IMG/VR virus record: IMGVR_UViG_3300030328_000719 | Location: 1 to 42,303 of that record | Reading direction: 5' to 3' (one strand) | DNA length: 42,303 bases | Origin: a virus | In this document: positions 4,593-22,933 of the stretch, in pieces | Numbering within the stretch: the stretch's first letter is position 1 | Layout of the letters: each line of letters opens with the position of its first letter | Translations under genes and position numbers: made by a program | The notes under the pieces: model-generated | Told to the model about the DNA's origin: nothing | The model's input: the letters and a program-made list of their open reading frames with translations, nothing else | Database searches by the model: none

Positions 4593-6152
4593 TTAATATC
4601 CAAACGTAGCGTCTGCTACTCTCATACCGCTACTGGGCCTACCCATTGGGTCATAATCAAATATACTAAATCTTGGTCTTGACATTATACCATATCTTAA
4701 CGCATCATACAAGTGGTCTTCACTTTTTGTATCCACGTCCTCTGGATTTTTTTTGTCCAACGGTATGGCGGGAAGTTGGGATATGACATTTGTGCAAGTA
4801 TCAAAGAAAACAAGTCTAGGCTCCTCTGTAAATTCATCTATCTGTAATCTACGATGTACTTCATTTTTACCAGATACACGACTACCTTTACTTCTATCGG
4901 ATGGTCTCCACCTACATCCTTTTTGTATCATTTGTTCTGCCAGAGAAGGACCAGTATCGCCACGTTTATGCCACAAAGAGCTATCCAGAACACCGTACTT
5001 AATATTACCATCTTCCGCTTCCAAATCCAGAATCATATCTGCCAAATCTGTGGCAAGGATTTTAGAAACGTATAATTCTCTATAAACCACAAGTTGTTCA
5101 TCAGGCGCAACAGCAAACCATAACACACCGCTAAAACTGCCGTAACCATAATCGCAAGACCTAAACTTAACCCAGTTATTAGGAATACGAAAAGGCTCAA
5201 CAACGTGAACATTCCTATTAAACTCAGTAAAGGCTGCGCCTTCTTTAATGTCCCAATCACCTTCCAAAAGTTGCTTCCGTTGTTGCTCTGGAAGAGAAAG
5301 GAGCATGGCTTCGTAATCACCTGCTTGCGCAAGGTATGGGTTATCAGAAAGTCTTGCTGGAATAAATCGTCTTTTAAATAGAGGCTTTCCAGCCTTGCTA
5401 TGTCCTGCTGGATACCGTAGGACTTCGGTTGTTTCAATATCGGTTGCATCGAAGGCTCTGTCGTATGGCGAAGGGTCAATGAACATTTTCTTAACCCACT
5501 GATGACCTCTACCGCCGGGGTTAGTCGTAGCCCTCATAAAAATTGGCAAATCTTGTGCAGTGGACCGTAGACGTGACCGCATGTAATTCCATGCGTATGG
5601 TGTGGCCCACTGCGTCAATTCGTCAAAGCCTATCCAGCTAAACGCCAGACCCTGATAACGCAAGACATCCTCATCTCTATCCAGATAAGACATCCACAAC
5701 CTTGCACCAGATGGCGCAGTCCACTGCATCTTTCTTTCTGACCACTTTATACCGGGCCAGATTTTCGGGTACAACTCCTGCGACTTAAATATAAGTTCGC
5801 GCAACTCCTCTGTGGTGTGTCGCAGCAGAAGCCCACTAAACTGTGGATGCCCCATGTATCGTAATGGGTCTGCAAGCATGGCATAACTTTTGCCACCACC
5901 TGCTGAACCACCATACAAAACTTCTCTTTCACTTGCAGCCAAGAACTCCGTCTGTGGTCCGGGGTTTGGCTTAAACAACACATTAGCATGTTCTTCTATG
6001 CTTTGTGTTTCATATGAAACTTCTTTAATTTTAGCTGCTGGCTCTGGAGCCTGTTCTTTGGTTACTGATTTCTTCCGCTTTGGCGATTGCCGTTTTCGCA
6101 TACTCTGCCCACTTGCGGAGGCTTGCAGCTTGATTCTTACGTCTTCGCTCAT
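4593..6152 (-). CDS. terL: Terminase large subunit (packaging ATPase/nuclease)
   Basis: 519 residues. The ATPase domain shows Walker A GGSAGGGKS (residues 81-89), Walker B FSWIGFDE (171-178) and the coupling segment RATTNPGG (207-214). The RNase H-like nuclease domain shows acidic residues at D334 (CDYGYG), D390 (YGVLDSS) and near 479-483 (EDHLYDALRY). The enzyme pumps DNA into the prohead through the portal and cuts the concatemer. It precedes the portal in the late unit. Its 5' 122 bp overlap the recombinase-like gene at 6031-6432 in another frame. All key residues appear intact. Confidence 0.95.
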   Translation of the reverse strand: MSEDVRIKLQASASGQSMRKRQSPKRKKSVTKEQAPEPAAKIKEVSYETQSIEEHANVLFKPNPGPQTEFLAASEREVLYGGSAGGGKSYAMLADPLRYMGHPQFSGLLLRHTTEELRELIFKSQELYPKIWPGIKWSERKMQWTAPSGARLWMSYLDRDEDVLRYQGLAFSWIGFDELTQWATPYAWNYMRSRLRSTAQDLPIFMRATTNPGGRGHQWVKKMFIDPSPYDRAFDATDIETTEVLRYPAGHSKAGKPLFKRRFIPARLSDNPYLAQAGDYEAMLLSLPEQQRKQLLEGDWDIKEGAAFTEFNRNVHVVEPFRIPNNWVKFRSCDYGYGSFSGVLWFAVAPDEQLVVYRELYVSKILATDLADMILDLEAEDGNIKYGVLDSSLWHKRGDTGPSLAEQMIQKGCRWRPSDRSKGSRVSGKNEVHRRLQIDEFTEEPRLVFFDTCTNVISQLPAIPLDKKNPEDVDTKSEDHLYDALRYGIMSRPRFSIFDYDPMGRPSSGMRVADATFGY

Positions 6153-7632: not shown

Positions 7633-8013
7633 CTATATCTTATTAGTTGTGTTCATCACCATACCACCTTTACGGAAATCTGTATGGCCTGTTCGCTTAC
7701 GTGGCATACCACCTTGACTACCACCAAAAGTTTTAGTTCGTTTGTCTTTTTGCTCAGAAAAAAATTCACCTATCGCACTAATAATGCTCTGTTCTTTTTT
7801 ATTGCTTTTAGTTTGACGTACTGGTGTCTTTCTTTTCTTTTCTTCTGGTTTACCACTTACCATTTCAGCTACATCTGTTATTGTGTCAGCAACAATACCA
7901 CCATACTTTTTTTTATCTCTTGCTGTAGCTTCCCTAATTTTTTTATCTTTACCATCTTGTGACTTATACAAGTCGCCCATAAAAATATAGTATCTACGTT
8001 TAGTATTAGACAT
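7633..8013 (-). CDS. Small basic protein with C-terminal DFRKGGMV tail
   Basis: 126 residues, strongly basic. A short N-terminal fold begins MSNTKRRYYIFMGDLYK, a Lys-rich linker follows, then a helix (SIISAIGEFFSEQKDK) and a tail GHTDFRKGGMVMNTT. The start at 8013 overlaps the lysozyme stop as TAATG, which supports MSNTK over the internal Met at residue 12. No known family is recognised. The tail is shared with neighbouring proteins and may be an assembly tag. Confidence 0.55.
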   Translation of the reverse strand: MSNTKRRYYIFMGDLYKSQDGKDKKIREATARDKKKYGGIVADTITDVAEMVSGKPEEKKRKTPVRQTKSNKKEQSIISAIGEFFSEQKDKRTKTFGGSQGGMPRKRTGHTDFRKGGMVMNTTNKI

Positions 8014-8498
8014 TAAAACTCTCCGTTGTGCATTGCGTTAGCCAACTTAGTAGCCCGTCCTTTTACTTGCCTACTCCACCTACTGTCAAGCATCTCTTTT
8101 GCTGCAGTTGGGTAGTCACCACATTCTACAGCCGCCCACATCTTTTTAAATTTACACAGGCGAGGCACACCCATGTTAAATGCCATATCTATTAATATAA
8201 GCTGACGTACAGAGTCCAACCTGTCTACGCAAGGATGCGCACGTAACAGTTCTTCCTCGACAATCTGTACGTCATTCTCTGCTAGATAGACCGCATCAGC
8301 TTCGGTGATTCCGTATTCATACACATGGTCAATGGAAGGAATATCTAAATCATCTAGTTCTTCCTTTGTAATGCCACGGTCTTCTAGGTTTCGTCCGATA
8401 CCAATAGTATCAATTCCTAATGTGTCCTTATATACCTGTAGCCTTAGACCTTCGCTCACCACCAGCTTGTCTATTAGGTCTTGCTTGTTGTACTTCAT
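8013..8498 (-). CDS. T4-type lysozyme (endolysin, GH24)
   Basis: 161 residues, the usual size of T4-like lysozymes. The catalytic triad is visible as E16 (VSEGLRLQVYKD), D25 and T31 (DTIGIGRNL), the E-8-D-5-T spacing of T4 lysozyme. A C-terminal helical segment IDMAFNMG...FKKMWAAVECGDY matches the second lobe. It cleaves the glycan strands of peptidoglycan at lysis. There is no signal peptide, so release depends on a holin. Two holin-like genes lie just upstream, and its start overlaps the first by 71 bp. Confidence 0.92.
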   Translation of the reverse strand: MKYNKQDLIDKLVVSEGLRLQVYKDTLGIDTIGIGRNLEDRGITKEELDDLDIPSIDHVYEYGITEADAVYLAENDVQIVEEELLRAHPCVDRLDSVRQLILIDMAFNMGVPRLCKFKKMWAAVECGDYPTAAKEMLDSRWSRQVKGRATKLANAMHNGEF

Positions 8499-9849: not shown

Positions 9850-10065
9850 TTAGTCGCACTTATCTTTTCCTGCACAGTCTTTGGGATAACAATGCACTTG
9901 CATAGAGTAGTAGTCATTTTTGTAACTAGCTGCCCATTTATTATCTTGTAACATATATTCACATTGTTTTTCGGTCATAGGTTCTTGTAATGCGAGTTGT
10001 CCAATATAATGGTCTGTAACACCATCACTACCCCACATACTTATAACCATTATCCACTCTTTCAT
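9850..10065 (-). CDS. Small cysteine-pair protein
   Basis: 71 residues. It has a hydrophobic N-terminal strand (MKEWIMVISMW), a conserved-style Cys at the start of a helix (MTEKQCEYMLQDNKWAASY), then a beta segment with Cys (YYSMQVHCYPKDC) and a Cys-rich end. Same layout as the proteins at 4403, 11151, 14625 and 20487. Coupled by TAATG to the oxygenase gene upstream in the transcript. No function known; the Cys pattern suggests a small disulfide-stabilised or metal-binding fold. Confidence 0.55.
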   Translation of the reverse strand: MKEWIMVISMWGSDGVTDHYIGQLALQEPMTEKQCEYMLQDNKWAASYKNDYYSMQVHCYPKDCAGKDKCD

Positions 10066-11147
10066 TACGCTGCCAGTGCGGGATTACTGGCATCTACCTG
10101 CATCCATTTAGACCACTCGTTGTAATAGTGGCGCATACCTACTTCATCGTGGATTGTACTATTCTCATGCCTACCATGCAAGATGTTACGGGGTTCTGTG
10201 CCTTCTCGCATTGTAGTGCCTTGACCTGCGACACCAATCAGGTCTTCATGCAAGTTCCTGCCAAACGGTCCCCATATGGAGTTATGATGTTTGATACGAG
10301 TGGTACGTTCTTCAGGTGTGTCTTTTTTAAGACCATATCCACGGAACTCAATAAGAACTTTGTTTGGCCCAAGAGGTGTAACGCTATCGCTTCTATAAGC
10401 ACTACCCCGCAGATTAAAATTAAATCCGGGGAATAAGTCCACCATGTACCATTGATTGGGTGGGAGATTAGGGAAACTAAGCTCTCCTCTATCCTCAAAG
10501 CCATCGTACTCTTCGTAGTTGACTGTGAAGCTGCTGACATTAACATGTCCATTATCAAATGGTATGTTCTTTCTAGCAAAATATTCATCATTAAATCCTG
10601 ACACACGATTAAAGTAATGCATAAAGTCGTGGTAGAACTCACTGTTGGTATCATGCCACAATTTGTAGTTTGTATCTATTACGGCTTTGTGATAGTGGAA
10701 TACTTCCATTTCTTCTGCATCTATTGCATCTGCTATGCAATCAAATGCACCCGCTGTCCACTGGTCTACACTTTGAGTTGGGTTAGGGTCTAATGTAACC
10801 CAGACCATACCGCCGTGCTTTACCTCACAATGTAAAGGTTTTTCTACAGTAGCAAAATCATAGGTAATATTTCCAGCAGGTTTACGATGGTCAATATCGT
10901 TAGTATTATAATAAGCCTGAACATTTTCACCGTCTATATTAATTGTAATAACTCTTTTGTCTGCAATTCGTGTAGTCCTGTAGTCACCCTTGTTTCGCAT
11001 CTCACTAATGTGGCACATAGGCACCCATACTTTAGAAAATATGTTTTCTTGTTCTTGTTCATATAAACTGTAATCCGAGTATATAAGAGAGTTTATGTAC
11101 TCTACTTTAGGTTTCTTTGTCCAGTCTTTATGGTTACGTGGGGGCAT
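10065..11147 (-). CDS. Rieske-type ring-hydroxylating oxygenase alpha-subunit homologue lacking Rieske ligands
   Basis: 360 residues. The N-terminal part follows the alpha-subunit pattern (EQENIFSKVWVPMCHISEM, KGDYRTTRIADKRVITI). Where NxCxHRG is expected there is NTNDIDHRKPAG (residues 81-92): the His (H87) stays but the Cys is gone. The second CxxH is missing, with the sequence passing straight to KHGGMVWVTLDP. The catalytic domain is preserved: NYKLWHDTNSEFYHDFMH gives H173 and H177, and LHEDLIGVAGQG gives D302, the 2-His-1-carboxylate iron site. The family uses O2 and electrons from the Rieske cluster to hydroxylate substrates. From memory, HMO-2011 carries a related gene called methanesulfonate monooxygenase. 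Substrate is unknown here. It is embedded in the late unit. Confidence 0.82.
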   Translation of the reverse strand: MPPRNHKDWTKKPKVEYINSLIYSDYSLYEQEQENIFSKVWVPMCHISEMRNKGDYRTTRIADKRVITINIDGENVQAYYNTNDIDHRKPAGNITYDFATVEKPLHCEVKHGGMVWVTLDPNPTQSVDQWTAGAFDCIADAIDAEEMEVFHYHKAVIDTNYKLWHDTNSEFYHDFMHYFNRVSGFNDEYFARKNIPFDNGHVNVSSFTVNYEEYDGFEDRGELSFPNLPPNQWYMVDLFPGFNFNLRGSAYRSDSVTPLGPNKVLIEFRGYGLKKDTPEERTTRIKHHNSIWGPFGRNLHEDLIGVAGQGTTMREGTEPRNILHGRHENSTIHDEVGMRHYYNEWSKWMQVDASNPALAA

Positions 11148-22054: not shown

Positions 22055-22933
22055 ATGAACACTGTAAAACATCTTGTGGATAAGTATTATAATTCCAATG
22101 ATTTCAAGATGTTACGAAGCAGAACTAAGAAAGACTATCAATACTTTCTTAGTATAATGGTGGACGATTTTGGCTCTGTGAAATTTTGTGAACTCACAAG
22201 TAAGCAGGCCAAACACGCATACGAAAGGTGGGTTGAGCGAGGTATCAGTCTCGCCAACCATGTATGCACTGTGTCATCCATCCTGTTTCGTTATGCTATT
22301 GAGATGGAATATACACATATCAATCCGTTTGCTAACGTCAAACGCAAGACACCACCACAACGTAAGGTTGTATGGACAGAGGACGATGTGCGTCAGTTTC
22401 TTGACATTGCATACAGTGAGTTTCAGTATCGTAGTATCGGATTGATAGTTCACATGGCGTATGAGTGGTGTCAGCGGCTGGGTGATATGCGTCTGTTGAC
22501 GTGGGATAACATCGACTTGGAAGCTAAGAAGCTGTATCTTGAGCAGTCAAAGCGTAGGGCAGAGGTAACTTTACCTATACAAGATGACCTGCTTGAGATG
22601 CTGACACAGCAAGAGCAGGACTTTGGCTTTCAACAGTACGTTGTTCCCCGTACAACGCCCGTACACGGGCAGTACGAGCCGTATAGTATGGAGAGACTGT
22701 CCAAAGCTGGACGGGCTGTCATGCGGGAAGCTGGGCTGTCTGATGAACTACGCCTGATGGACTTACGCAGGACAGGTACAACACAAATGGTTGAAGCTGG
22801 TGTCCCTATGGGACAAATCATGTCGGTTACAGGACACAGTAATCCACAATCAGTAAAACCATATATGAAAAATACGTATGAGAGTGCAAATAATGCCTTG
22901 ACAGCACGTAAATCTTATGGTAAAAGCACTTAA
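22055..22933 (+). CDS. int: Tyrosine recombinase/integrase
   Basis: 292 residues, short for a phage integrase but with both domains: an N-terminal core-binding SAM-like helical domain (~1-95) and the catalytic domain. Catalytic residues: R141 (CQRLGDMRLLTW), K167 (SKRRAEVTLP), R238 in MDLRRT, H261 (GHSNPQS) and nucleophile Y270 (KPYMK). The usual His of the HxxR box is Met here (M235-D-L-R). Catalyses site-specific DNA exchange, implying a temperate lifestyle or genome-resolution role. No attP core or tRNA fragment was recognised nearby. It lies between the small early genes and the replication genes. Confidence 0.85.
   Translation: MNTVKHLVDKYYNSNDFKMLRSRTKKDYQYFLSIMVDDFGSVKFCELTSKQAKHAYERWVERGISLANHVCTVSSILFRYAIEMEYTHINPFANVKRKTPPQRKVVWTEDDVRQFLDIAYSEFQYRSIGLIVHMAYEWCQRLGDMRLLTWDNIDLEAKKLYLEQSKRRAEVTLPIQDDLLEMLTQQEQDFGFQQYVVPRTTPVHGQYEPYSMERLSKAGRAVMREAGLSDELRLMDLRRTGTTQMVEAGVPMGQIMSVTGHSNPQSVKPYMKNTYESANNALTARKSYGKST

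Follow-up and report, generated by a model that had tools for sequence, protein, structure and literature searches.

Electron flow in Rieske oxygenases runs between subunits: the Rieske cluster of one passes electrons to the iron of the next via an acidic bridging residue, so that a subunit without a cluster can work beside a cluster-bearing one. There is experimental precedent for this in the N7-demethylase NdmCDE of Pseudomonas putida CBB5, where the Rieske-less oxygenase NdmC is served by a Rieske domain carried on the reductase NdmD (PMC4408171). In methanesulfonate monooxygenase (MsmABCD), a CXH-X26-CXXH segment is defining for the alpha subunit, MsmA; absence of this motif from the MsmA of phage HMO-2011 and of viromes was noted in 2015, with no mechanism offered (PMC4433239).

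Genome context of the phage gene

The window (the whole stretch of viral DNA analysed; 42.3 kb) is a fragment of a marine, HMO-2011-type phage, encoding an integrase, a DnaB-like helicase, DNA polymerase A, ribonucleotide reductase and endonuclease I. Phage type is marked by the terminase large subunit (4593–6152, minus strand), 86% identical to that of HMO-2011 by sequence comparison. The oxygenase gene (10065–11147, minus strand) lies in the late block, in an order matching that of HMO-2011 gp61, with a lysozyme/endolysin gene (8013–8498, minus strand) downstream in the same block, again ordered as in HMO-2011. The phage integrase is encoded at 22055–22933, so that this HMO-2011-type phage may be temperate.

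HMO-2011-type phage isolates from roseobacters and pelagibacters (terminases up to 83% identical) lack a homologue of the oxygenase gene. Among the HMO-2011-type isolates compared only the SAR116 phage has it, a distribution that, with one SAR116 isolate, is no more than suggestive of a tie between gene presence and a SAR116 host. No ferredoxin or Rieske donor was found in the window, the complete HMO-2011 genome or the flanks of 80 contigs, and the msmABCD/EFGH-type neighbourhood present around SAR116 chromosomal copies is absent in the phages.

An oxygenase subunit with an iron site and no Rieske ligands

The gene, with an ATG start and no internal stop, encodes a 360-aa Rieske-less, MsmA-type oxygenase alpha subunit. 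Pfam returned PF00848 (Ring_hydroxyl_A) alone (residues 145–350; E = 3.4e-08, above the cut-off) and no Rieske domain in this protein, and inspection of its sequence revealed neither CxH nor CxxH. In PDB sequence searches residues ~8–88 match Rieske oxygenase alpha subunits over their N-terminal region, the alignment stopping where the cluster loops start. A 2-His-1-carboxylate metal site is predicted within the PF00848 domain from homologue alignment, the putative iron ligands being H173 (10629–10631), H177 (10617–10619; H-x3-H, as in MsmA) and, in LHED, D302 (10242–10244; all minus strand), each invariant. E170 (10638–10640, minus strand; motif alignment) is also invariant among phage homologues, and occupies what we take, from motif position, to be the place of D205 in naphthalene dioxygenase (NDO), the Asp bridging Rieske cluster and iron site. 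The phage protein is predicted to be unable to hold a Rieske cluster of its own and to have kept its iron site.

The earlier note had made this same claim from the letters of the window, and homologues bear it out. Scanning IMG/VR with the phage protein matched at least 598 stretches, the best 80 of which were read. The Rieske motif is absent from HMO-2011 and from all 82 first-round sequences, with H173, H177, D302 and E170 invariant; in a wider set, LWHDTN[S/C]EFYHD[F/Y]xH is kept in 143 of 143 phage proteins and LHED in all 138 that reach the Asp motif, and CxH..CxxH occurs in none of the 143. The suspicion that HMO-2011 shares the losses was also correct: gp61 of this isolate genome (GU557055/ADW08429), annotated ‘methanesulfonate monooxygenase hydroxylase alpha subunit’, is a 75.6% identical orthologue at the same position and with the same losses, already published for that phage (PMC4433239).

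The catalytic half evolves under strong purifying selection (dN/dS ~0.02 among homologues, with synonymous sites near saturation), and residues 51–107 (10827–10997, minus strand), defined by alignment and dN/dS as the remainder at the site of the deleted Rieske loops and spacer, are fast-evolving by comparison (median dN/dS 0.32 vs 0.02). Among phages (homologues L002–L081) these residues are highly variable, including in length, between nearly invariant flanks, a pattern pointing to recombination, or to diversifying pressure, where the cluster once lay.

Two ways in which a cluster might be restored, both foreseen in the earlier note, were rejected. Cys45, Cys107 and Cys137 form no CxH or CxxH pairs that could rebuild it from shifted positions, and the first two vary across phages. 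An assembly error or pseudogene is ruled out by the isolate genome, by more than 100 contigs agreeing on the same loss and by the purifying selection.

An AF2 model built from 52 aligned sequences (pLDDT 84, pTM 0.86) replaced an earlier one made with close homologues only (pLDDT 53). Its best Foldseek matches in the PDB were terephthalate dioxygenase, NagGH and CntA (E = 2e-19 to 1e-15; TM (TMq) ~0.7), and the predicted structure is consistent with an alpha-subunit fold, residues 81–100 and parts of the pocket being less certain. With the alpha subunits of CntA (carnitine monooxygenase) and of terephthalate and naphthalene dioxygenase the modelled protein would have the catalytic fold and the base of the Rieske domain in common; those enzymes keep the Rieske cluster, whereas the phage protein lacks it.

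Ancestry within MsmA

Bacterial relatives form two groups: intact MsmA with CXH-X26-CXXH, about 50–58% identical to the phage protein, and Rieske-less proteins of ~360 aa, 72–81% identical and nearly all from SAR116 genomes. Compared with MsmA of MsmABCD (about 50–65% identity), the phage protein has the same H-x3-H iron site, LHED and a nearly intact catalytic half, but lacks the CXH-X26-CXXH segment: both ligand pairs and the 26-residue spacer separating them are deleted between RAFLN and RRLRCEV, and the remainder aligns almost gap-free. Two details of the earlier note fail in this alignment. NDIDHR, proposed as a remnant of CxHR, has its HR aligned with IERRPSG in the MsmA spacer (SAR116 copies keep a first Cys, as CPS or CPQ), and the H-x3-H spacing, taken for an oddity, is found in all bona fide MsmA and is a family trait.

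In the tree, the split between clade I and MsmA is supported at 100/100, and clades II and III are nested inside gammaproteobacterial MsmA. Sequence-based phylogeny places the phage protein as a derivative of the alpha subunit of methanesulfonate monooxygenase, and this origin within MsmA argues for splitting independent of NdmC.

A complementary partner in SAR116 genomes

SAR116 locus L083 encodes, in order, a 796-aa Rieske and reductase fusion, a beta subunit, a Rieske ferredoxin, a 279-aa protein, the Rieske-less alpha, a TauE sulfite exporter, PanB and formate-THF ligase. The fusion has Pfam Rieske, Pyr_redox_2 and Reductase_C domains and no PF00848; its N-terminus is MsmA with an intact CPHRG..CMFH and its C-terminus an FAD/NAD reductase. 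Ligand losses in the two proteins are complementary: CPHR..CMFH is kept in all partner copies and the iron ligands are lost, by substitution in the single-contig genome G029 (K, Q and K at the E170, H173 and H177 positions, with the LHED stretch deleted) and elsewhere by complete absence of the NYKLWHD..HDFMH and GRNLHED stretches. Between species, partner identity is 88% in the Rieske part, 39% in the relic catalytic part and 73% in the reductase.

Rieske-less alpha is present in 12 of 61 SAR116-family genomes. All 12 also have the partner, as fragments in G004 and with a frameshift in G007, and it is missing from the remaining 49. Were the genomes independent, which SAR116-family genomes are not, such an overlap would arise by chance with a probability of 6e-13; shared loci and common descent partly explain the co-occurrence. 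A search with the Rieske-less alpha found no intact MsmA in the 12 genomes. The frameshift or stop in G007 (locus L193, ~14680) falls between relic and reductase and reflects either an assembly error or a true two-protein split. The G005 MAG has two copies of the Rieske-less alpha and two of the partner, on contigs C16 and C45 (L192, L191), with alpha and partner linked ~11–13 kb apart. Two apparently bacterial loci without a partner (L096 and L098) were rejected as counterexamples: these viral-looking sequences with a Rieske-less alpha (L195/L096 and L194/L098, labelled Hellea and Rickettsiales MAGs, respectively) are probably phage contigs in bins.

Like MsmA of MsmABCD, the chromosomal Rieske-less copies adjoin MsmB- and MsmC-like genes and genes for sulfonate transport and sulfite handling, an MsmC-like Rieske ferredoxin being encoded in every complete split locus as well as in intact msm operons. 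G029 carries the same split genes together with a sulfonate-type ABC transporter, a SoeABC-like Mo/4Fe-4S/anchor complex and TauE. The earlier note’s doubt about the MsmA label was thus half justified: ancestry and chromosomal neighbourhood fit methanesulfonate monooxygenase, and the gene specifies no more than half of the catalytic unit. Strain IMCC1322 is the host of HMO-2011. Its two annotated MsmA proteins, only one of which bears the motif (PMC4433239), fit a split alpha/partner pair in SAR116.

Compared with NdmC/NdmD (PMC4408171), the arrangement is the same in pairing a Rieske-less oxygenase with a second protein that joins a Rieske domain to a reductase. The SAR116 Rieske carrier differs from NdmD in that an MsmA alpha, now decayed, is joined in it to an FAD reductase of the glutathione-reductase type, and it is present in host genomes and not in phages: it is encoded neither in the window nor in the HMO-2011 genome, and among the 64 loci matched in a viral scan with the partner no partner was found, nor a Rieske motif in any alpha ORF. 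The split locus also differs from NdmCDE in having a beta subunit and a Rieske ferredoxin, and in that its catalytic half is carried by phages as well. No GST-like protein comparable to NdmE was recognised in the split locus. Split-msm loci encode a 276–279-aa protein without a Pfam match (L083, 4953–5792; L190, 12555–13385), a candidate accessory protein; a 34% identical relative (L111, 9574–10341) lies beside an intact msm operon.

Repeated loss in phage lineages

Rieske-less proteins of clade II phages (L196–L203), which have T4-like neighbours, and of clade III phages (L207, L208, L211, L213, L223 and L257), another phage type, are each nested in gammaproteobacterial MsmA, and clade III and its MsmA relatives have a common DADGD insertion. 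A single origin of all Rieske-less phage proteins was rejected (delta lnL 65, p-AU 0.00037, 0% of 200 bootstrap trees). By these trees the same segment was lost at least three times in phage lineages. A viral scan with intact MsmA found no intact MsmA; the ORFs with intact Rieske motifs that it did match were unrelated. These ORFs (~635 aa, CPHR..CGYH; viral contigs L260–L268) indicate that phages are able in principle to carry Rieske motifs. Relatives of the clade II and III donors encode a single, intact MsmA and lack the fusion partner, so electrons there would need to come from MsmC or intact MsmA of the host.

SAR116 proteins are nested among those of phages in 96% of bootstrap trees, a single phage clade being still compatible with the data (p-AU 0.149). 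It is conceivable, if rather doubtful, that the split arose in phages by repeated msmA capture and Rieske deletion, that SAR116 took up the viral subunit and that the host MsmA then became a reductase-fused relay. Were this so, SAR116 would owe the catalytic subunit of a core sulfur-cycle enzyme to a virus.

A proposed split methanesulfonate monooxygenase and its alternatives

The phage gene likely encodes the iron-bearing, catalytic alpha subunit of a methanesulfonate monooxygenase divided between two proteins, and this subunit would receive electrons in trans from the host. An ancestral MsmA lost its Rieske-binding segment and kept its iron active site; in SAR116 the lost function would be held by a second MsmA copy, which kept the Rieske part, lost the iron ligands and became fused to an FAD/NADH reductase, with beta subunit and Rieske ferredoxin supplied from the same host locus. 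We infer that the parts assemble in one complex, in which electrons would pass from NADH through the FAD reductase domain (possibly via the MsmC-like ferredoxin) to the partner Rieske cluster and on to the iron of the Rieske-less alpha. There O2 would be activated and methanesulfonate, the presumed substrate from homology and gene neighbours, cleaved to formaldehyde and sulfite. The phage would make the iron subunit only, slotting it into host complexes during infection, and the infected cell might gain C1 units from formaldehyde for making nucleotides, or energy from sulfite or the electrons it yields. The earlier note, in proposing that electrons may come from elsewhere, was right as to the possibility, for which a Rieske-bearing host partner has now been found; its interpretation is supported in part. 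The partner and the repeated loss were invisible to its author. Counting against the split reading are the frameshifted partner in G007 and the lack of a partner in relatives of the clade II and III donors.

The latter would be accommodated if host MsmC reduced the Rieske-less alpha directly, docking at the former Rieske lobe, with the fused partner only feeding the ferredoxin. Such a route would serve clades II and III also, and MsmC-like ferredoxins accompany complete split loci and intact operons alike. It is nevertheless unlikely, since the Rieske segment is the most conserved part of the partner (88%) despite decay of the catalytic part, implying that its cluster is needed for more than a plain reductase role. 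Loss of electron input with retention of oligomer surfaces would also suit a dominant-negative decoy that joins host MsmA complexes and stops methanesulfonate oxidation in infection, and the three separate phage losses are what selection for inactivity might produce. A decoy, however, has no need of the invariant iron triad and E170 or of the constraint on the catalytic half (dN/dS ~0.02), and in SAR116 hosts the Rieske-less form is the only iron-bearing MsmA-type alpha; we consider this explanation very unlikely. Similarly improbable is an iron protein repurposed away from oxygenase function (a binding protein, a virion component or an enzyme of other chemistry with an external reductant). 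Location in a late block near lysozyme and structural genes and fast variation of residues 51–107 would fit such a protein, but the entire MsmA catalytic pocket is retained, and chromosomal copies are embedded in msm-like loci, next to genes for a beta subunit, a ferredoxin, a transporter and sulfite handling.

In the open literature searched, neither the fusion partner nor the complementary loss nor the repeated phage losses were found described, and SAR116 papers list msmA without remark on a split. The split methanesulfonate monooxygenase would add to NdmC/NdmD another, apparently independent example of a Rieske oxygenase divided into iron and Rieske proteins, the first with a virus carrying one half, and one that includes convergent loss in three phage lineages. 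The SAR116 enzyme escapes searches keyed to intact MsmA motifs.
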